NCBI RefSeq assembly: GCF_001618685.1
Contig: NZ_CP014342.1
Span: 1,550,001-1,614,000 of the forward strand
Origin: Geobacillus subterraneus
GTDB lineage: Bacteria; Bacillota; Bacilli; Bacillales; Anoxybacillaceae
Length of the DNA stretch: 64,000 nucleotides
Direction of reading: 5' to 3'
Below, in pieces: positions 38,780 to 63,412 of the stretch. The notes below the pieces were generated by a model. That model searched no databases and was not told the DNA's origin. It saw only the letters and a list, made by a program, of their open reading frames with translations. Both the position numbers and the translations under genes were made by a program. How positions within the stretch are numbered: position 1 is the first letter of the stretch; every line of letters starts with the position of its first letter.

Positions 38780-38808
38780 ACGCTGCGTCTTATGACGCGG
38801 CTTTTTTG
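38780..38808 (+). terminator. Terminator of the tre operon
   Basis: GCTGCGTC / GACGCGGC stem around TTAT, followed by six T bases. Confidence 0.8.
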
Positions 38809-38826: not shown

Positions 38827-38855
38827 ACCAAAATAAAACTATGTTCTAAATAACC
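38827..38855 (+). promoter_or_regulatory. Replication terminator (Ter-like) site 1
   Basis: Contains ACTATGTTCTAAAT preceded by AAATAAA. This matches the B. subtilis Ter B-site core (CTATGTACYAAAT) at all but one position; the A-side half keeps only part of the consensus. The rtp gene is in the same window. If the B side is the blocking face, this site would stop forks moving toward lower coordinates. Confidence 0.65.
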
Positions 38856-38926
38856 ATTGATAATCATAAACAACTTACGTTATGGCTATCCTTGTTAACA
38901 ACGGCATCGGAAAGGGGGACGCCGAC

Positions 38927-40339
38927 GTGGAAGGAACATGGTGGTCGCTATTGCCGTTTCTTCTTATCATTCCACTCGCTGTTTGGCTGAAAGAAATTTT
39001 GCCTGGCTTGGTGGTCGGTCTGCTTGTCGGGGCGCTCTGTCTTGAACGGTCGGTCATCGGTGCGATCGAGCGGGCTGTTTCCGCTATTCTTCATTCGCTC
39101 AATGATGTTGAACATATAAAAGTGGCAGCGTTTTTATATTTGTTTGGGTCGCTCGTCGGCATGATGCAAATTACCGGCGGGATTAAAGGATTTGTCGAGA
39201 GGCTTTCCGGGCGCATCCATACGAAGCGCGGACTGCTTTTATTTGTTTGGCTGACGGTGCCGGTGACGTTTTTTATGCCGATGTTCCGCATCATGCTGCT
39301 TGGGCCGGTGATGAAAGCAGTGCTTCGCCAGTTCCGCATCGACCGCCGCCGCATGGCGTACATCATCGATGTCTCGACCGAGCCGATCATCGTGCTCTTG
39401 CCGGCGGCAACGGCGTTTGTCGGCTTTATGACTTCGGTCGTGGCGGCAGCGCTGGCGCAAAACGATATTCGTGAATCGGCATATGACATCTTTTTGCGCA
39501 GCTTGCCGTACAACTTGTTTGCCATCATCACCCTTATTGTCGGGCTGTTGACGACGATGATGAACATTCGCATTGGCAACCCGCGGGCGAAAAAAGGGGA
39601 AGGGGAAACGAATGAACTGCACGGCCTTGGGCTGCGCAAAGAACTGGCGCTGATCGCCGGCGATCCGCTTCATCTTTTTGTCCCGTTGGCGCTGCTGCTT
39701 GGGCTGACGTTTGCCTTTTTTGTCTATGACGGCCGGCAACGCGGGGCGCGCGATTGGCTCGGGGCGTTTTCCGAAGCCGATGCGACGTGGGCGATGCTTT
39801 TGGCGCTGTTCGTGACGATCCTGTTGTCGATGGTGTTTTATTTGTGGCGCAGGCAGTCGCTTTCCGAGCTGATTTATCACTTTTTTGCCGGGGGCAACGA
39901 ACTCATGGCGCCGATCGGCATGCTCATTCTCGTTTGGGCTGTATCGGCGGTGGCGGGCGAGCTCGGGTTTACAACGTACGTAGCATCGACGTTCGGCACA
40001 TGGCTCCCGGGGCCGTTCGTGCCGGCAGCGGTGTTTTTAGCCGGGTCGTTTCTCTCCTATTTTATCGGATCATCATGGGGGACGTGGGGCATTTTTATGC
40101 CGCTTGGCGTCACGCTCGCCCATGCGACCGGAGCGCCGCTTGAGATGACCGTCGGCGCGGTGTTTGCGAGCGGAACGTTCGGCGCGTTCGCTTCGCCGCT
40201 TGGCGATACAACGATTACGACCGCGGCAATTATGGATATGGATTTAATGGGCTATGCGAAATACAAGCTGCGCATCTCCCTAATTTGCGCTGGGCTGTCG
40301 CTGGCCGGGTACGTATTTTTGCCGCTTTGGGCCGGTTAG
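38927..40339 (+). CDS. NhaC-family Na+/H+ antiporter
   Basis: A 470-residue transporter with around eleven hydrophobic segments. NhaC-family character: LPFLLIIPLAVWLKEILPG at the start, two related halves (LYLFGSLVGMMQITGGIKGF; LVWAVSAVAGELGFTTYV), and the conserved SYFIGSSWGTWGIFMPLG and SPLGDTTITTAAIMDMDL near the end. It probably exchanges sodium for protons; amino-acid exchange is also known in the family. GTG 38927 follows GGAAAGGGGG; the ATG at 38882 would add 15 residues. The gene lies exactly between two Ter-like sites. Confidence 0.8.
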   Translation: MEGTWWSLLPFLLIIPLAVWLKEILPGLVVGLLVGALCLERSVIGAIERAVSAILHSLNDVEHIKVAAFLYLFGSLVGMMQITGGIKGFVERLSGRIHTKRGLLLFVWLTVPVTFFMPMFRIMLLGPVMKAVLRQFRIDRRRMAYIIDVSTEPIIVLLPAATAFVGFMTSVVAAALAQNDIRESAYDIFLRSLPYNLFAIITLIVGLLTTMMNIRIGNPRAKKGEGETNELHGLGLRKELALIAGDPLHLFVPLALLLGLTFAFFVYDGRQRGARDWLGAFSEADATWAMLLALFVTILLSMVFYLWRRQSLSELIYHFFAGGNELMAPIGMLILVWAVSAVAGELGFTTYVASTFGTWLPGPFVPAAVFLAGSFLSYFIGSSWGTWGIFMPLGVTLAHATGAPLEMTVGAVFASGTFGAFASPLGDTTITTAAIMDMDLMGYAKYKLRISLICAGLSLAGYVFLPLWAG

Positions 40340-40379
40340 AAGGATCGCTGTCCCATCCGGCCTTTTCTTTATCTTTATT

Positions 40380-40408
40380 ATAAAAATAAAACTATGTTCT
40401 AAATAATC
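40380..40408 (+). promoter_or_regulatory. Replication terminator (Ter-like) site 2
   Basis: Shares a 24-base identical block with site 1, in the same orientation, including ACTATGTTCTAAAT and then AATCA, slightly closer to the Ter consensus end (NTTC). It lies 41 bases after the antiporter stop. Confidence 0.65.
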
Positions 40409-48929: not shown

Positions 48930-49044
48930 AAGCGGGCGGGGGAGGAGGTTTCCTCTCCCGCATGGTATCATGAAAAGAAAGCGGAATTAAGCAGGAATTC
49001 GCGCTCAGTGAGGCGAATGAAACATCTGAAGGGAGGACAAGATC

Positions 49045-49419
49045 ATGGGAGAGAAACGGACGCCCAGCGGTTTTCTGTTAAAACAACGTGCGTTTTTAAA
49101 ATTGTATTTGATCACCTTAACGGAACAGGAGCGGCTGTACGGACTGAAGCTGCTTGACGTACTGCGCCAAGAGTTTAAGCCGTTCGGCTACCGGCCGAAC
49201 CATTCGGAAGTGTACAAGGCGCTTCACGATTTGATCGAAGACGGCATTTTAAAGCAAGTGAAGCAGAAAAAAGAAGGGATGAAGTACCAGGAAGTCGTGT
49301 ATTACCGGTTCGCCGACGGAGGACAGGAAAAAGCAAAACTGTACAAACGCCAGCTAAAAGCGGAGCTTGACCGATGCGCGGCGCTCATTCGCAAAGCCAT
49401 TGAGGACAACTACAGCTAG
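49045..49419 (+). CDS. rtp: Replication termination protein
   Basis: DNA-binding dimer that binds Ter sites and blocks replication forks from one side. The 124-residue product matches B. subtilis RTP across its length: SGFLLKQRAFLKLYLITLTEQ, YGLKLLDVLRQEFK, PNHSEVYKALHDLIEDGILKQ (winged helix recognition) and LKAELDRCAALIRKA (dimer coiled coil). GGGAGGAC precedes the ATG. No Ter site was found over its own promoter, unlike B. subtilis; the two Ter-like sites are ~9-10 kb away. Confidence 0.95.
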   Translation: MGEKRTPSGFLLKQRAFLKLYLITLTEQERLYGLKLLDVLRQEFKPFGYRPNHSEVYKALHDLIEDGILKQVKQKKEGMKYQEVVYYRFADGGQEKAKLYKRQLKAELDRCAALIRKAIEDNYS

Positions 49420-55233: not shown

Positions 55234-55580
<347 letters not shown>

Positions 55581-56486
55581 ATGTTGTTTCGACAAGCCAT
55601 TGATGAATTTGTGTTGTACTTGCAAATTGAAAAAAACTATTCACTTAACACCGTTGATGGTTATGCGTATGATTTGAGATGTTTCGAGAACTTCTTAATT
55701 CAACACGGTTATTCTGTACAACTTCATGACATTACAAAAACGCATGTTCGTCGCTTCATCCAGCATCAGATTACAAAAGAAAACGTCAAACCTAGAACGG
55801 TCTATCGGAGAATTTCTTGCTTGAAATCGTTCAGTAAATACTGTGTCAAAGAAAATCTAATCGACAGCGATTTTATGATCGGAATTGATACTCCTAAAAC
55901 GGATAGCAAATTACCGACTTATATGTCTTTGTCTGAACTACGAAAGCTGTTCCATTTTTTGGAGCAAGACAATAGCCGAATGGCGATGCGAAACCATCTT
56001 CTATTTAAACTGTTAGCCACTACGGGTATGCGAAGATCTGAAATTGTTGAACTAACTTGGGAACAAATTGATTTATCGAACAACACGATACGCATATATG
56101 GGAAAGGAAAAAAAGAGCGCTTACTCCCCCTTCATCCCATGGTTGTCCCTTTAATTAAGAGCTATATGGGAAGTTTAGAAGAATATCAGCTCCATCCTTC
56201 CCAACCGGTATTTTTAAATAAAAACGGTAAAAAACTGAATCCGCGTGGTTTACATAAGATATTTAAAGAAATCTTACAAAAAGCTGGTCTGCCACCTCAA
56301 CGGTTCTCACTCCATCATTTGCGGCATACGTTTGCTACCTTGTTGATACAAGAAAATAAAGAAAATGTTGATTTGCGTACCGTACAAGAACTACTCGGCC
56401 ATGAAAGTTTAGTCACGACGCAAGTATACACGCATGTTGACTTTGAGCAAAAGAAAAAAGCGATTGAAACATTTAACATATTTTAA
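55581..56486 (+). CDS. Tyrosine recombinase (XerC/XerD-like)
   Basis: A 301-residue site-specific recombinase. N-terminal SAM-like core-binding domain (~1-95), catalytic domain with R151 (ATTGMRRSEIVEL), H245/R248 (LHHLRHTFAT), H274 (LLGHESL) and nucleophile Y283 (TQVYTHVD). AT-rich codon use unlike the genes before 55.2 kb. Of XerC/XerD size, but its AT-rich setting suggests an element-borne enzyme rather than the chromosomal Xer pair. GGAGGTG precedes ATG 55581. It converges on a second recombinase across a terminator. Confidence 0.9.
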   Translation: MLFRQAIDEFVLYLQIEKNYSLNTVDGYAYDLRCFENFLIQHGYSVQLHDITKTHVRRFIQHQITKENVKPRTVYRRISCLKSFSKYCVKENLIDSDFMIGIDTPKTDSKLPTYMSLSELRKLFHFLEQDNSRMAMRNHLLFKLLATTGMRRSEIVELTWEQIDLSNNTIRIYGKGKKERLLPLHPMVVPLIKSYMGSLEEYQLHPSQPVFLNKNGKKLNPRGLHKIFKEILQKAGLPPQRFSLHHLRHTFATLLIQENKENVDLRTVQELLGHESLVTTQVYTHVDFEQKKKAIETFNIF

Positions 56487-56501
56487 AACCTGCTTAGTAC
56501 G

Positions 56502-56532
56502 GAAATAACTACCCTAGCCGGGTAGTTATTTC
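56502..56532. terminator. Bidirectional terminator between convergent recombinases
   Basis: GAAATAACTACCC / GGGTAGTTATTTC is a thirteen-pair perfect stem with A/T flanks. The 3' arm covers the last bases of the minus-strand integrase. Confidence 0.85.
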
Positions 56533-57980
56533 ATGTGAATATGAGTTGGCGGATACAAAGGCACTGGATGCGTGAGATCGTACGACATTGAGTGCATTCC
56601 ATGAGTTTGCTGATAAGGCATTGGAGCATGGGGAAAATACCCTTGCTGCGCCATAGCAATCTGATTATAAAGTTCTGGTGCTTGAAATGTAAAATAATCA
56701 GAATGATTATTCCCTGATTCTTTAAGTATTTTTTGCTGTAATGCAGCAAATGCATACTTTACGAGATGTTCTTTAAACAGATTGATGTAATTTTTGTTTT
56801 TCAATTGATTCGAATAAACTTTAGGAATTTCATCAAAAATTTCTTCTAAATCTAGAGTGATATTATAATTAGATTCAAGTTCCATAGTGGTTTCAAAAAG
56901 AGTTTCGATTATTACTTGGGCCGCTCGAATTTCTTTAATATACTTTGCATCGCTTAAAATATAATGCTGCAGAGCGCCAAGCTCATACCTGGAATGGCCA
57001 AGTAAAAACCTGATGGCATCATCTGAGACCCCCATTTCATGAAACAATGTAGAAAGAGTGTATCGTAATCCGTGCGGTGTGAAATACTTCTCTGTTTTAC
57101 GGATGATTTTGTTTCTTCTTCCCTTCTCTTTTGCATGATTATGATTTTCCTTATTCTCTGGTTGTTCATATTCTACTTTTATCCATCCCAAATGTTCACA
57201 TACTTTATCGATTATATAATTCATCTGCTTGTTAATGAGCGGCTTTCCTCTCAAGCCGTATAACAATGCATCATTTGGTTCCATGTGTTCAATATATTGG
57301 GTGAGTAATTTCATGAGCTTAGGTGGTAATGGAATAAAGAAGTCTTTGTTTTTGCTGTTTGGCGAATTGTCAGTGTGTTTATCCCCTTCCTCTAGATATT
57401 GGTCAAGAAGTTTATCTTCTTTTACTCGATCTTTTTTTGGATCGAACTCATAAACTAGACCGTTCATAGTAGTAGAGACTGAACGAACGGTTAGTTTTTC
57501 GAGCGATGTGACTCTGAGAGCAGTAAACATATCTATTAGGGTTGGAACTAATACATTAACACCTCTTTCTTGCAACTCAAACGCAGCTTTGTAAACTTGG
57601 TATAATTCGATGATATTTAATGCTCTCGAATGATGTTTTTGTTTATTAGAATCTGTGATTTTTAATGCTGCGAATGGATTTCCGTTAATAACTCCGAGCC
57701 GGTTATAATGCGTAAACATAGATTGCATCGTTGCCTGATGTTGTTTTATCGTTCTCGGACTATAGCCTTGTTTTCGTTGATCATTTTCCCATATCTTCAC
57801 AAATTCATAATCGATATTCTCAAGCACTGGATTTAACCCTTGGTTTAACATATATTCTGACATGTAAATTACATTTTTACGGTAGGTACGTCTAGTGTTT
57901 TTTGACCAAAACTGGCTTTTTTCATATTCATTAAAAGCCTCAATTAAAGTAGATTTAGCTGAAATATTTGTCTTGCTCAT
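56526..57980 (-). CDS. Large tyrosine recombinase/integrase
   Basis: A 484-residue phage-integrase-type recombinase. N-terminal core-binding domain (SKNTRRTYRKNVIYMSEYML, ~20-105), catalytic domain with R156 (FTALRVTSLEKL), H303/R306 (TPHGLRYTLS), H329 (LLGHSRYEL) and likely nucleophile Y340 (LQHYILSD). It then continues ~140 residues beyond the usual end, finishing in a Pro/His/Met/Tyr-rich tail (FPHAPMPYQQTHGMHSM...). GGAGGTAATAGATC precedes ATG 57980. Element-borne by composition. Confidence 0.85.
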   Translation of the reverse strand: MSKTNISAKSTLIEAFNEYEKSQFWSKNTRRTYRKNVIYMSEYMLNQGLNPVLENIDYEFVKIWENDQRKQGYSPRTIKQHQATMQSMFTHYNRLGVINGNPFAALKITDSNKQKHHSRALNIIELYQVYKAAFELQERGVNVLVPTLIDMFTALRVTSLEKLTVRSVSTTMNGLVYEFDPKKDRVKEDKLLDQYLEEGDKHTDNSPNSKNKDFFIPLPPKLMKLLTQYIEHMEPNDALLYGLRGKPLINKQMNYIIDKVCEHLGWIKVEYEQPENKENHNHAKEKGRRNKIIRKTEKYFTPHGLRYTLSTLFHEMGVSDDAIRFLLGHSRYELGALQHYILSDAKYIKEIRAAQVIIETLFETTMELESNYNITLDLEEIFDEIPKVYSNQLKNKNYINLFKEHLVKYAFAALQQKILKESGNNHSDYFTFQAPELYNQIAMAQQGYFPHAPMPYQQTHGMHSMSYDLTHPVPLYPPTHIHMK

Positions 57981-58023
57981 GATCTATTACCTCCGTATAA
58001 AAATAATTGAACTTAAAATACAA

Positions 58024-58098
58024 AAAACCCCAAGCCAAACACCGCTACTTCTTATGCGTGTATATACGCATAGGTAGCGCTGTAAAGCTTGGGGTTTT
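58024..58098. repeat. Nested palindrome upstream of the large integrase
   Basis: Three concentric inverted repeats: AAAACCCCAAGC / GCTTGGGGTTTT (58024-58098), CGCTAC / GTAGCG (58043-58079) and TATGCGT / ACGCATA (58053-58072). On the minus strand the outer stem is followed by TTTTTT, so it may terminate the gene at 58232-58720; its complexity also suits a recombination or replication site. Confidence 0.7.
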
Positions 58099-58231
58099 CC
58101 CTTGTCGTATATTAAGTTATTCATTTGTTTTGTATTTTATCAGATTATGATGAAAAGTCAACAATTATTTTGCAAAATATAATAATAAGAGCAAAGAATC
58201 TGCAATCATAAGTGACGATTATTACCAATCA

Positions 58232-58720
58232 TCAGCCATCCTTTTCTTTTAAATCAACCTTGTAATATTCCAACCCTCTTTGCAGCAAAACATTTACTAG
58301 TGCATTTATTTTAAATGATTTTTCTATACTTAGATTTTTTATTGTGTTATACATTTTTTCTGTTAAGAAAAAGGTCTTCTTCTCTTTTAACAACGAATGA
58401 TCTACTTTTAAGTAATCTTTGAACATTTTATATTCCAAATCGAAATTCTCTTCAACGTTTATTGGCGTTCGATTTTCTTGTTTCTTTTTTACAAAGGGTT
58501 TATCAACTAATAAAACGACGATTCTACTTTTTACATCTCTACTCAATGATTCTTCTGGTGCAATACCTTTATATTTATATTCATTTTCTTCTTGATCAAA
58601 TTCAATTGCTGCATTTGCCAGTTTTCTTTCTAAGTCTTTTTCATTTATTCCTGCCATAGCTGCAACTTCTGCAATTGATTTTCCGTTGTTTAACTGTTCT
58701 AATGCTTCTATTAATTTCAT
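58232..58720 (-). CDS. Putative plasmid-type DNA-binding protein, 162 residues
   Basis: No family recognised. The N-terminus looks like a helix-turn-helix (LEQLNNGKSIAEVAAMAGINEKDLERKL) and the C-terminus (KTFFLTEKMYNTIKNLSIEKSFKINALVNVLLQRGLEYY) is like a ribbon-helix-helix or partition-type DNA-binding module with acidic/basic linker. GGAGGTGATTTAA precedes the ATG, a strong ribosome site. AT-rich. Likely a regulator or partition protein of the inserted element. Confidence 0.6.
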   Translation of the reverse strand: MKLIEALEQLNNGKSIAEVAAMAGINEKDLERKLANAAIEFDQEENEYKYKGIAPEESLSRDVKSRIVVLLVDKPFVKKKQENRTPINVEENFDLEYKMFKDYLKVDHSLLKEKKTFFLTEKMYNTIKNLSIEKSFKINALVNVLLQRGLEYYKVDLKEKDG

Positions 58721-59096
58721 TTAAATCACCTCCGATTGTTTTAAACATTATAACTTCGCTTGTGCTAAATTTTAATAACTTTTGCAGAATATTTGTGGCA
58801 ATTTATAGCCATATAAATTCAGATGTGCTACGGATTCTGAAAAGAATGTATTCAAAATTTATCATGATATTTTGATCAATCTATACTTAATCGATGGCCT
58901 TATCAGCAGTTTTACAATGCCCGGTCGAACGATACAAATAAAAGATACGAATTAAAATACATCCGCCCCATCACTTATCGAAATAGTATTGGCCGTCATG
59001 CAACCTTTCTTTTATTGAACGATTTAAAAGTGCATTTTTTCCATTCGGCTCAAACGAAAAGCTAAAATATTTAACATTGAGCCACAGATTCATAGG

Positions 59097-59130
59097 GTTA
59101 ACTGGGTACATTAAAACCTACCCAGTTAAC
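59097..59130. repeat. Perfect twelve-base inverted repeat
   Basis: GTTAACTGGGTA and TACCCAGTTAAC with a ten-base loop, without T-run; possible protein-binding site in the AT-rich island. Confidence 0.6.
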
Positions 59131-59306
59131 TGTATGAACAACTTCATATACCTAATAGTTTAAAAATGGCTTCAGATCAAGTGTTCTAAAATTTAGAAGA
59201 ATGACCTATCCAGACGAGTATTACTATATCCCGACTCCTAATTTGACCCAAATTTTTTAATAAAATAAATTACATTTTTCGGATGGATATAACATTATTT
59301 GATAAT

Positions 59307-59335
59307 AAAAAAACCAGTATCAAATTGATACCGGT
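59307..59335 (-). terminator. Minus-strand terminator
   Basis: ACCGGTATCAA / TTGATACTGGT stem followed on the minus strand by seven T bases, downstream of repeat cluster A and the decayed gene. Confidence 0.65.
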
Positions 59336-59362
59336 TAATCATTCATCATAGTAATTTTTATT

Positions 59363-59520
59363 TTTTTACATATTTCCCGTACTAAATCAAATCTTTTTAC
59401 ATAAATCCCGTACCGAGAAAAATTCCGCACTGAGACCACAGTTTTTACTTAAATCCCGTACTGAGCTTTTACAAAATTCCCGTACCAAAATAATAGTTTT
59501 TACATAAATCCCATACCAAG
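59363..59520 (+). repeat. Iteron-like repeat cluster A (degenerate)
   Basis: Copies of TTTTTACA...ATCCCGTACC begin at 59363, 59394, 59442, 59467 and 59497, with a further partial copy near 59418. Same family as the long array at 60870, but more diverged. Confidence 0.75.
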
Positions 59521-59607
59521 CTAATGAAAACTATAGATTTCCGCAAATAAATACACTTTTTGTTCAAGCATTCATCATGTTTTAACTGTACACCCTACAG
59601 GATTTTT

Positions 59608-60082
59608 CATGCGTGTATGATCGTTTCACGTTTAAACGAAGGGTCTTCTATACCTGTACTTATATATTCAAAATCCCCATTAAATAAAAGATAGAGATCT
59701 ATTTCTATCCAATCATCAGATTCTCGCTTACCTAAAAGAATAAGTGACTGTTCTAATTCTTGCCTGTTCCATCTACAACATTAATTTGGTCTAATTCTAT
59801 TTGGATACGTTCCAGAACATTTGCTTTTACTATTGCCACCGGTATAGTGGCTTTTTGCGTTTCTGTACCCCCAAGTTCCAAAGCTAATTTATATAACGGA
59901 TAATCATTTTGTAATAGTTGAATATCTTCTGTTTCAACTTTCGGTTTTAATGCAAATCGGACTGATTGATCCGTTTTTGATAAAATCTGTTCTAAACATC
60001 GATAAGATGAGTCGTTACGTCTAACAGTGGCGAATGCGATGCAATCATGATGAAGAAGATGTAGATTTGATTCGATGGCCAT
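59608..60082 (-). pseudogene. Decayed unrecognised gene with -1 frameshift
   Basis: An ORF from 60082 (MAIESNLHLLHHDCIAFATV...) runs to a stop at 59753, but shifting one base near 59765 continues an open, acidic C-terminal segment (NRQELEQSLILLGKRESDDW...FKRETIIHA) to 59608, about 158 residues in all. No ribosome site precedes 60082, so the 5' end may be lost too. Family not recognised; it belongs to the AT-rich island. Confidence 0.5.
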
Positions 60083-60120
60083 GGGGATCTATTGTTCGGT
60101 ACCATGAAAAGAAACGAAAA

Positions 60121-60169
60121 AAAATGACCCCCGTTGAACTGCACTTCAACGGGAGTCATCTTTGTTTTC
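60121..60169. terminator. Bidirectional terminator
   Basis: ATGAC-CCCGTTGAA / TTCAACGGG-GTCAT stem with A and T flanks, between the 77-residue gene and the decayed gene. Confidence 0.85.
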
Positions 60170-60170
60170 T

Positions 60171-60404
60171 TTAGAACTTCATCATAATTTTCATATTCCC
60201 TCCGCTGTTGCTAACAAATCGATTATTCTCATCAAATGCAAGAGGTCCTATCGCTGGAAAAACAAACAGACTATCTCCCTCACGCATTCTTTCTTCATAA
60301 CGTATTCTGGCAATTGCCCATGCTTCCTCTAATGACAAAGCCCCCACGACATCCATTAATTCGTCTTTCTCTTTTGTTCTAAGAACGACATAATACTGAT
60401 TCAT
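60171..60404 (-). CDS. Small unrecognised protein, 77 residues
   Basis: MNQYYVVLRTKEKDELMDVV at the start, then GALSLEEAWAIARIRYEERMREGDS and an uncharged C-terminus with GGNMKIMMKF. GATGGAGGGATTATTT precedes ATG 60404, and a terminator follows. The frame is open 24 codons upstream without a ribosome site. No family recognised; single gene in the AT-rich island. Confidence 0.6.
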   Translation of the reverse strand: MNQYYVVLRTKEKDELMDVVGALSLEEAWAIARIRYEERMREGDSLFVFPAIGPLAFDENNRFVSNSGGNMKIMMKF

Positions 60405-61439
60405 AAATAATCCCTCCATCAAAAATGTTGATAAATAAAAAACATCGGCAAGAATGCCAACGACTGTTTTCGCCATACATCCTTACCGATGATTTTTCAC
60501 CATTTTTCTGGACCAAAAAGGCCTTCTGTTATATTAATTGTAAAAGGAAAGAAAAGTAAAAAACAAAATCGATTATCTATTATCATTCTATCTTACCCTT
60601 TGCCTTTTTTTAACCCATTTCATCGAATTTCTCCCTGTAAAATAACAAATCTGCTCGACAAAAGTGAAGACTGGGTAGATAACATAATGGCCACCTAGGT
60701 AGGGAATTCAATATAGAGGCAAGCAAAAGAAACTTAAAGTATATTTGTAGTAATGAAATGAAAAAGAAACGGGAAGAAGTACGAATACATCCAAGAGAAA
60801 AATTAATCGAATAATCAAATGACAATGTCCAGATGACAAACAGGAGCGAGAGGAATAGGTGGAAAGTAGTTTTTACATATTTTCCGTACCAGCCATCCCC
60901 TTCTTTTTACAAAAATCCCGTACCAGCAAAGCACTTTTTACAAAATTTCCGTACCAGCAAAGCACTTTTTACAAAAATCCCGTACCAGCAAGGACTTTTT
61001 ACAAAAATCCCGTACCAGCAAGGACTTTTTACAAAATTTCCGTACCAGCAAAGCACTTTTTACAAAAATCCCGTACCAGCAAGGACTTTTTACAAAATTT
61101 CCGTACCAGCAAAGCACTTTTTACAAAAATCCCGTACCAGCAAGGTACTTTTTACAAAAATCCCGTACCAGCAAGGCACTTTTTACAAAAATCCCGTACC
61201 AGCAAGGTACTTTTTACAAAAATCCCGTACCAGCAAGGCACTTTTTACAAAAATCCCGTACCGGCAAAGCACTTTTTACAAAATTTCCGTACCGAGAAGA
61301 GGTTTTTACATATTTTCCGTACCCCGAGTTCGACAGTCCATTTTAGGCAAGGACAATTTAGAAAAAGCCTTTTAAGTCTATACACTAGAAAAATACGTTG
61401 ATTTTCGTAGGCACACACTTCGTATGTCAAGGTTGATTA
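60405..61439. other. Non-coding stretch containing the iteron array
   Basis: No gene with a ribosome site was found. About 450 bases of AT-rich sequence precede the repeat array at 60870-61324. Open frames across the array only reflect its ~30-base periodicity. Confidence 0.6.
60870..61324 (+). repeat. Iteron-like array B, 15 copies, 30-31 bp period
   Basis: Copies begin at 60870, 60904, 60935, 60966, 60996, 61026, 61057, 61087, 61118, 61149, 61180, 61211, 61242, 61273 and 61303. Each has TTTTTACA, four to six A/T bases, TCCCGTACC (sometimes TTCCGTACC) and then AGCAAgGCAC-like filler that alternates between two forms. The constant period and strict direct orientation are typical of plasmid iterons or partition sites. 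No rep gene is adjacent. Confidence 0.9.
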
Positions 61440-62080
61440 TATTTTCCCCAAAATCGCCGGTTTAACATTCCCCAGAAAGATCTCATGGAACCCTTTGTTT
61501 TTCTTTTTTGGATCCTCTTTTCCTGTAATCGATAGCTTTCCCCTCTTTAGGTAATGGAATGACGCAGCAATCGATCTAACATCGCCCGAGTCTCCCACAA
61601 TTTCTTCCCATTCCCCAGAGCTTTTGTTGGGATATGCTCGTACCGCTGGGTGATCACTAGAAATAAGCAATGAGCGCTGTTCGGATCCAGTTTTAGGTAC
61701 CCCATTTCATCGATCATGAGAACAGTTGGCTTCACAAAGACAGGAAGCTTTTTCTCCAACTTTCTGACTGCCTCTTCTTAACTGAGTGACCAAATCACGG
61801 GCGGTAACAAAATACGTTTGATATCCTCTTGCTATTGCCTCCATTCCAATCGAAATCACCAGGTGTGTCTTTCCAATCCTTGGTGGGCAGAGAAAAAGGA
61901 TATTTTCTTTTCGGTCAATACACGACAACGTAAGCAGTTCTCGAATCCATCACTCATCCAACGAAGGTTGCGCGGTAAAAACGTATGGATCGTCTTGCGA
62001 TACGGCAGTTTGGACTTTGATGAGCGTTTGGATCGATCGTTCCTGTCTTTTGACAATTTCCGCCTCTAATAAGCGAATAA
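61440..62080 (-). pseudogene. Degraded IS21-family istB ATPase
   Basis: Pieces in several frames: ERSIQTLIKVQTAVSQ, a TGA within ...QPSLDE, then WIRELLTLSCIDRKENILFLCPPRIGKTHLVI (Walker A), YFVTARDLVTQLRR, a frameshift, KPTVLMIDEMGYLKLDP (Walker B), and further frameshifted C-terminal fragments to about 61440. This is the IstB helper ATPase of an IS21-type element. No istA transposase is seen. Confidence 0.85.
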
Positions 62081-62410
62081 GCGGAACAAAAACTCCGAAT
62101 ATGGCATATTAAGAGTAACTACGTATTCTACCATGGAGAATCATCGTTCCTCCGTGACAAGCAAATGGAATCGGTGACCATACTCGTGTATTCGTTCTTT
62201 CATGATCTTTCCCTTCTCAGGAATGCGTCATAACTCGTGATCATGAACCATTGCTCCTCTTATTGACATTATAGTTCTATTGTAAGTGAGGAATTTTATT
62301 CAGCTATATTGGGATTTTATCATCTGCTTTAACACATTATATATGGAACTGTAGATGAGTATTTTTCATTACAGTAATTTCCATTCCCTAAGAGACAAAC
62401 AGGGGACCCC
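62081..62410. other. IS debris, no gene
   Basis: Between the istB remnant and the DDE transposase nothing was recognised. Confidence 0.4.
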
Positions 62411-63412
62411 TTAGGCGACATGGAGCTGTTTTTTGATCACATCAATGGGAATATCTTGCTTTGCGGCGTCATAGATGAACTCGACGACGCTGTGCCCTTT
62501 CCGAGACCGAAGAAGCTCCAGGCCGGAAGAGATGTCTTGTTGAGATTCCGCGATGCTGTATACGCAGGCTAACAGCACCACGACCCAATACCGTTTCACC
62601 GCCCGAACGTGGCGAACACGGTACCCATCGAGCTTCAGCTGGTCTTTTGCCTGCCGGAAAAAGCATTCGATCGTCCAGCGCTGGGCATAGTAACGCAAGA
62701 TGTCTTCGTCACTCAGCTCCCGGTCGGTGCTCAATATGACATGGAGATGATCCGGCGTCATCGGTTGATCCGCCTTCCAAGCCAGCAGCACCACCGCGTC
62801 ATCAAGACCGTTGAGCGCGCCTTCGTAGCGGTAGACACGATAGCGCTCGTTCCCCACCGTGACGAGGCGGGTGTCGTTGGGCTCGATATAGCGGGCAAAC
62901 TCCTTCGCTTGGATGGCGATACCTTTCGGGTAGAGAATCCGGTTCGTCTTGAGCATGGCGATGACATGGAATCCTTGTTTCAGACAGGCTTCGATGAGCG
63001 CTTGGGACGGATACCATGAATCCATGAGCACATACACCGGCTGAGCCCGCTTCCTCTTGAGCGAGGAAAGCATCTCGATCGCCAGGTCGATTTTGCTTCT
63101 TCCCGATGTCTTGTCATACAGACGAAAGGCGAACGGAAACGCTTGCGTGAAGGTGTGCACCATCAGCCAAACAAGCGAATGCCCCCAGACCAATTGATGA
63201 TCGCTGTGAGAGAAATGCCAGTCACACCCTTGAATGGCGTGCGTTGCCCGTGACGAAGGCTTCGTTTTTTGGCAAATGGTATCATCAATCGAAAGGAACA
63301 GGGGTTGATTCGTCCGTTTGGCCAGGCGTTCGATCTGGCGAAGAACCCACTCCTGAAGCTTCTTGTAAATTATCACTTTATTTTGGAATAAAAGAAGCAT
63401 TTTTTTGCACAT
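62411..63412 (-). mobile_element. 5'-truncated DDE transposase (IS701/IS4-like)
   Basis: A 333-residue reading frame. From QIERLAKRTNQPLFLSIDDT (first catalytic Asp) through YVLMDSWYPSQAL (second Asp) to RYYAQRWTIECFFRQAKDQL (catalytic Glu, YREK-like), the RNaseH-type core is present and unbroken. The first ~20 residues (MCKKMLLLFQNKVIIYKKL) are AT-rich and do not match, and the helical N-terminal domain usual in this family is absent, so the 5' end has been cut off near 63350. It probably cannot transpose by itself. Confidence 0.75.

Follow-up and report, generated by a model that had tools for sequence, protein, structure and literature searches.

Two tandem blocks flanking an antiporter gene in Geobacillus subterraneus are, we are confident, Ter sites recognized by the replication terminator protein (RTP); as such they would be the left-hand entrance, or mouth, to a replication fork trap of the RTP/Ter type around dif and rtp. 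The stretch analyzed (the window, 64,000 nucleotides) corresponds to positions 1,550,001-1,614,000 of a single 3,474,426-bp contig; coordinates are those of the window unless given as genome positions.

The identical block, AAAATAAAACTATGTTCTAAATAA, is 24 nt long and is found at 38830-38853 and 40383-40406, both on the + strand. The starts of the two copies are 1,553 bp apart, and identity is 89% across 36 nt. These coordinates bear out the preliminary description of a 24-base block occurring twice in the same orientation, about 1.55 kb apart, on either side of the antiporter gene. The core of the block, ACTATGTKCTAAAT, resembles the Ter sites found in fork traps of the RTP type. An exact 14-mer core, ACTATGTTCTAAAT, is located at 38838-38851 and 40391-40404 (both +), and the remaining seven matches to it in the window all carry three mismatches.

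We take the right-hand part of the Ter consensus, and of each site, to be the B half, in line with the RTP structures. The consensus for Bacillus subtilis reported in PMC3317982 is the 29-nt sequence KMACTAANWNNWCTATGTACYAAATNTTC. Compared with it, the outer Ter-like site (38827-38855, +) and the inner one (40380-40408, +) show totals of seven and six mismatches, three and two of which fall in the B half, counted over its 17 nt, and four each in the A half; the two sites are the top two matches to this consensus in the window on either strand. The proposed agreement with the B. subtilis Ter core, with a single position differing, is borne out across the 14-mer (13 of 14 positions) but not across the 29-nt consensus. 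As a finder the strict consensus was rejected: it leaves six to seven mismatches even at the window's two best sites, both of which it would overlook.

Site anatomy was derived from 86 distinct exact sites, in which the core is invariant by choice save for position 8, where T (73%) or G (27%) is found. The flanks read WATAAA-core-AATCAA, with A/T bias only further to the left. The B half and most of the TCA end are kept, whereas the ACTAA block of the A half has been lost; this half is A/T-rich and G-poor, with A at position -5 in 90% of the 86 sites. Judged by its sequence, the A half-site is degenerate relative to that of B. subtilis, which bears on the part played by the A site in the polar arrest of forks.

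The exact motif ACTATGTNCTAAAT occurs six times in the 3.47-Mb genome, and its reversed-pattern control not at all. The + copies are found at genome positions 366,096, 1,588,838 and 1,590,391, and the - copies at 1,686,473, 1,759,720 and 1,990,494, so that three + copies lie on one side of dif and three - copies on the other (trap polarity in 6/6). The latter three are opposite-facing copies of the kind that the preliminary description had proposed to seek beyond the window. The extended motif AAACTATGTKCTAAATAATCAA, with up to three mismatches, recovers the same six sites plus one at 1,253,301 (+), i.e., seven against no control matches. Given these genome counts and those of the reversed controls, the two-block repeat is not a product of chance. 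Three further matches with one core mismatch, at 1371535, 1759797 and 2527755, have the polarity of the trap, but matches of this quality are no commoner than chance allows (seven reversed-control matches) and were left uncounted.

A dif-like XerCD site (55371-55396, +; genome 1,605,371) is positioned between the + and - groups, inside the putative trap; a dif-like match with up to three mismatches was found in 13 of the 14 Geobacillus genomes. The dnaA gene is located at 3,229,110-3,229,316 (3.23 Mb), where GC skew switches sign, with values of -0.107 before the gene and +0.100 after it. From dnaA to 44 kb of the window the skew samples are positive, except for a near-zero value of -0.015 at 3.40 Mb; the skew hovers near zero over 44-56 kb, and every sample is negative from 56 kb round to dnaA. 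This second switch, near dif and between the two site groups, agrees with the fork trap that the preliminary description had proposed for this region. The antipode of dnaA, at 1,491,997, shows no switch, and the skew switch, dif and trap therefore cluster about 113 kb off the midpoint. By both dif and GC skew, the site groups are located at the real terminus, as is to be expected of a fork trap. Directly after dif there is an A/T-rich stretch (55371-63412) with two tyrosine-recombinase genes (55491-56486 and 56526-57980), a 31-bp unit repeated 12.7 times in tandem (60903-61293) and a DDE transposase (62411-63412); it is possibly an element inserted at dif.

The rtp gene (49045-49419, +) specifies a protein of 124 amino acids, which the preliminary description had taken to supply the terminator protein. 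It matches PF02334 with 181 bits (cut-off 26.7) over profile positions 1-113 of 113, i.e., full-length, and B. subtilis RTP (1bm9) with E=8e-51; 87 of 121 residues are identical to the RTP of genome G176, the rtp promoter of which has B. subtilis-type sites. These three comparisons identify it as a genuine RTP. The protein also matches the PadR regulator family. RTP has been reported from only a subgroup of the Bacillales, according to the accessible text of PMC6549158. RTP homologues were additionally seen on 16 plasmid records from Bacillus, Paenibacillus, Priestia and Cytobacillus, with 42-72% identity among the 15 matches listed, and are mostly annotated as HTH regulators; in the two examined (L221, L222), no Ter core with up to two mismatches was found within about 4 kb of the homologue. 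An RTP homologue (40%) is also encoded by Brevibacillus phage Jenst; just upstream of it are two Ter-like copies in opposed orientation (two mismatches and one; L223:2841-2921), which recall the TerI/TerII layout.

The motif is present in 14/14 Geobacillus genomes and in 41/41 genomes of the family (nine genera), with 1-11 copies in each and the reversed motif in none; a PF02334 RTP is likewise found in 41/41. On the largest contigs of 16 complete or near-complete assemblies, 81/81 exact sites fit trap polarity, the reference point being dif in six and rtp in ten; four of the 81 belong to rtp promoters and so lie only some 0.3 kb away from rtp as reference point, while another (G012:634,962) is without the usual flanks and may be a chance match. 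Across 299 genomes of the order, by hand count, the motif is found in 35 of the 55 with an RTP of at least 120 bits (133 matches) and in 37 of the 244 others (43 matches). The exact motif is absent from 20 of the 55 RTP-bearing genomes. In the RTP-bearing families f40 (0/10) and f41 (0/4), which lack it, variant sites were instead found in the rtp promoters of five and two loci examined; the site therefore differs between families. Five loci of families f44, f3 and f14 had no site at the rtp promoter. Family f44 includes Priestia; four of its assemblies (G121, G201, G226, G294) contain 22 sites, and when these are read along the contig the strand switches between + and - once in each assembly, with rtp outside the innermost sites (e.g., G226, G121). 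Six loci of Priestia and its kin (L106, L107, L109-L112) likewise show Ter sites in pairs, with both members facing the same way and a spacing of 2.4-3.5 kb. Loci of named species appear to come largely from the same genomes as those with G handles and were not counted as independent.

No Ter site was found in the rtp promoter of the window (48930-49044), and the same is true for the other Geobacillus genomes (0/14 in all). The best promoter matches across the 14 comprise four with four mismatches (three if another core position is freed), three of which lie within the purU coding sequence, judged against the window. By comparison, 15/15 Anoxybacillus and Thermolongibacillus loci have a Ter with at most one mismatch 89-133 bp upstream of rtp, and two Parageobacillus-type genomes (g4) have one with two to three mismatches. 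In G176 and in named Bacillus relatives, sites of the published TerI/TerII type are present at the rtp promoter and have the register that was expected. In B. subtilis, rtp is autoregulated through the promoter Ter (PMC10331603, in the portion available), and from the 0/14 and 15/15 counts it seems that Geobacillus has lost this Ter-based autoregulation. A Ter in the rtp promoter is typical of B. subtilis and is not required for a trap.

The gene between the two window sites belongs to the Na_H_antiporter family (PF03553, 108 bits; ORF 38882-40339, +), with GTG 38927 as the likely start, since for 25 of 30 fetched orthologues the alignment begins at residue 7-17. Three NCBIfam models (NhaC, ArcD and Tet(35)) also matched the protein, each with a score far under its cut-off, and the label "NhaC-family" is appropriate at the Pfam level but not at that of the NCBIfam NhaC model. 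It is bordered by treC and treR on the left and by speE, purU and rtp on the right. The outer site is situated between the antiporter gene and an intrinsic terminator after treR (38782-38801, +; fold z -5.3), which was also returned by a strict terminator scan (total of 3, versus 3.2 in shuffles). A possible intrinsic terminator after the antiporter gene (40329-40363, +; -15.7 kcal/mol, z -1.9, followed by a T-rich stretch) is absent from the strict scan. Each window site thereby follows a terminator-like hairpin, the second of which is the weaker. A sigma-70 promoter scan near the sites was uninformative (0 found versus 1.5 in shuffles), and an Rfam scan of 36000-57000 gave nothing at gathering thresholds.

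Orthologues of the antiporter are found in 31/41 family genomes. In all 30 loci fetched, which represent seven genera, the gene is flanked on both sides by a site in its own orientation and with at most two mismatches; these account for 60 of the 62 matches in the 30 loci, where 20 shuffled cores averaged 3.6 matches and never gave more than 10. The upstream site lies 43-123 bp before the aligned antiporter start, and the downstream site, again with at most two mismatches, is within 365 bp in 29 loci and at 997 bp in one. In the 31st case (G027) the gene is split across two contig ends, each of which, by eye, is beside a site. The arrangement is thus common to seven genera and the tandem pair, as predicted from these motifs, is old; a transporter gene within such a pair is not the unusual feature it had been thought to be. 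Among the Geobacillus loci the outer site is perfect in 13/14 and the inner in 3/14, and in the other genera the figures are 13/16 and 15/16. In G033 a third tandem Ter (L119:2411-2424) is found between a PTS EIIBC-type gene and treC, giving a triple-barrier left mouth. Of 51 distinct sites, 49 are intergenic, despite ORFs covering 81% of those loci; the other two overlap doubtful-looking ORFs of 100 and 113 amino acids. Other tandem pairs enclose an Mn-catalase (L114; L115 alike) or an M42 peptidase (L108, L113), and that of L117 encloses no ORF of at least 90 amino acids, from which we surmise that the antiporter gene is probably a passenger between the sites.

This variety of enclosed genes weakens any explanation of the pair as the regulation of one gene. 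The strongest competing proposal is that the sites are operators, where RTP or another protein, bound around the antiporter gene, controls its transcription by repression or through a 1.5-kb loop. The constancy of both sites, with the upstream one so close to the gene start, would suit this, as would the better conservation of the promoter-side site in Geobacillus, the PadR match of RTP and the autoregulation of rtp in B. subtilis (PMC10331603). However, elsewhere the motif displays its chromosome-wide polarity with no antiporter adjoining it, and the pairs in other genera enclose other genes or none, so that we consider operators unlikely. A strand polarity switch at dif is also expected for motifs that organize the chromosome, and the sites might on that count be a polar oligomer unrelated to RTP, for example a translocase-guiding or XerCD-related motif. 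The low copy number in each family genome, the presence of the motif in the rtp promoter of several families, its alignment with the published RTP consensus and its rarity where a full RTP is missing (the 43 matches in 244 genomes, a hand count) make this very improbable. That the antiporter is a recent duplication or a mobile unit is scarcely credible: direct repeats do flank a single gene, and gene and sites are jointly missing at the one Anoxybacillus-type (g2, L118) and the one Thermolongibacillus (L116) locus examined, but these two loci miss neighboring genes too, the arrangement is conserved in seven genera, and in other genera the site flanks, by eye, share little beyond the motif consensus.

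The fork trap is therefore the favored explanation, and in Geobacillus it is very probably genuine; the opposed groups around dif, the skew switch and the genuine RTP all agree with the original suggestion that the sites are part of one. According to the accessible text of PMC13220808 and PMC5295017, two RTP dimers bind each Ter, forks that approach from the B side are stopped while those from the A side pass, and terI stops clockwise forks. By this polarity rule + sites would stop leftward forks and - sites rightward forks, so that a trap of about 96 kb (genome 1,590,391 to 1,686,473) could be entered but not left. RTP dimers would occupy the B half, CTATGTKCTAAATAATCA, and would have a lower affinity for the A half, which is A/T-rich; the complex would allow rightward forks through and halt leftward forks arriving at the B face. 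At the outer site, the B half faces right and would stop leftward-moving forks; the inner site has the same polarity and, from the map and the polarity rule, is the first encountered by a leftward fork past dif.

The distance from dnaA to the inner site is 1.639 Mb leftward versus 1.836 Mb rightward. Since the leftward arm is the shorter, and if equal fork speeds are assumed, the leftward fork would meet the inner site (40391) first and wait there while the other fork covers approximately 0.2 Mb. The outer site (38838) lies another 1.55 kb along the path of this fork and would act as a backup, which may be the reason for a double barrier; given equal fork speeds, the pair is probably the main barrier, with a backup behind it. 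The location of the sites in gaps after transcription terminators may keep RNA polymerase from sweeping RTP off, and the antiporter gene would be a passenger unit between two terminator-shielded gaps.

Several observations count against the trap. The poor match of the A half is one, given that binding to the A site is required for fork arrest in B. subtilis (PMC5295017, in the part available). Others are the lack of a promoter Ter in the 14 Geobacillus genomes, the 20 of 55 RTP-bearing genomes without the exact motif, and the position of rtp in family f44. It is also odd that the inner site, as a main barrier, is perfect in so few Geobacillus loci by comparison with the outer one. A more extensive proposal, which we offer tentatively and think rather doubtful as a whole, is that in this family the mouth of the trap is made of two barriers set close together, with a gene insulated by terminators between them; that in Geobacillus the antiporter pair is dominant and holds termination and dif about 113 kb off the midpoint; that rtp autoregulation has been lost and the A half has become an A/T-rich tract; and that the promoter-side site may let RTP control the antiporter.

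The RTP/Ter trap is an already known type, and the Geobacillus example very probably adds to it a site that has diverged, a double barrier that is conserved and the loss of the promoter site. Among the entries listed in the literature searches, where subscription journals are incompletely covered, none dealt with Geobacillus Ter sites in its title or abstract. Geobacillus skew and predicted ter points are treated in PMC4070872, the accessible part of which does not mention RTP, and the cited reviews of the fork trap, in their accessible parts, center on B. subtilis. For this family of thermophiles, all 41 examined genomes of which have RTP, the analysis provides a predicted map of Ter sites and a revised consensus, together with a double barrier that is conserved, and the uneven arms offer a clean test of whether the trap, rather than the midpoint, sets the point at which forks meet.

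With the B. subtilis RTP/Ter trap, the Geobacillus system shares an RTP orthologue, the core of the B half-site, the arrangement of sites in opposed groups about dif, the location of rtp inside the trap, and polarity. It differs in having T or G for A at core position 8, AATCAA for NTTC after the core, a degenerate A half-site, an rtp promoter without Ter, and a trap mouth consisting of a tandem pair 1.55 kb apart that encloses a gene. Like Tus/ter of Escherichia coli it would consist of polar protein roadblocks forming a trap, but the E. coli protein is unrelated and there is little similarity between the sites, as described in the available portions of PMC10331603 and PMC13220808.
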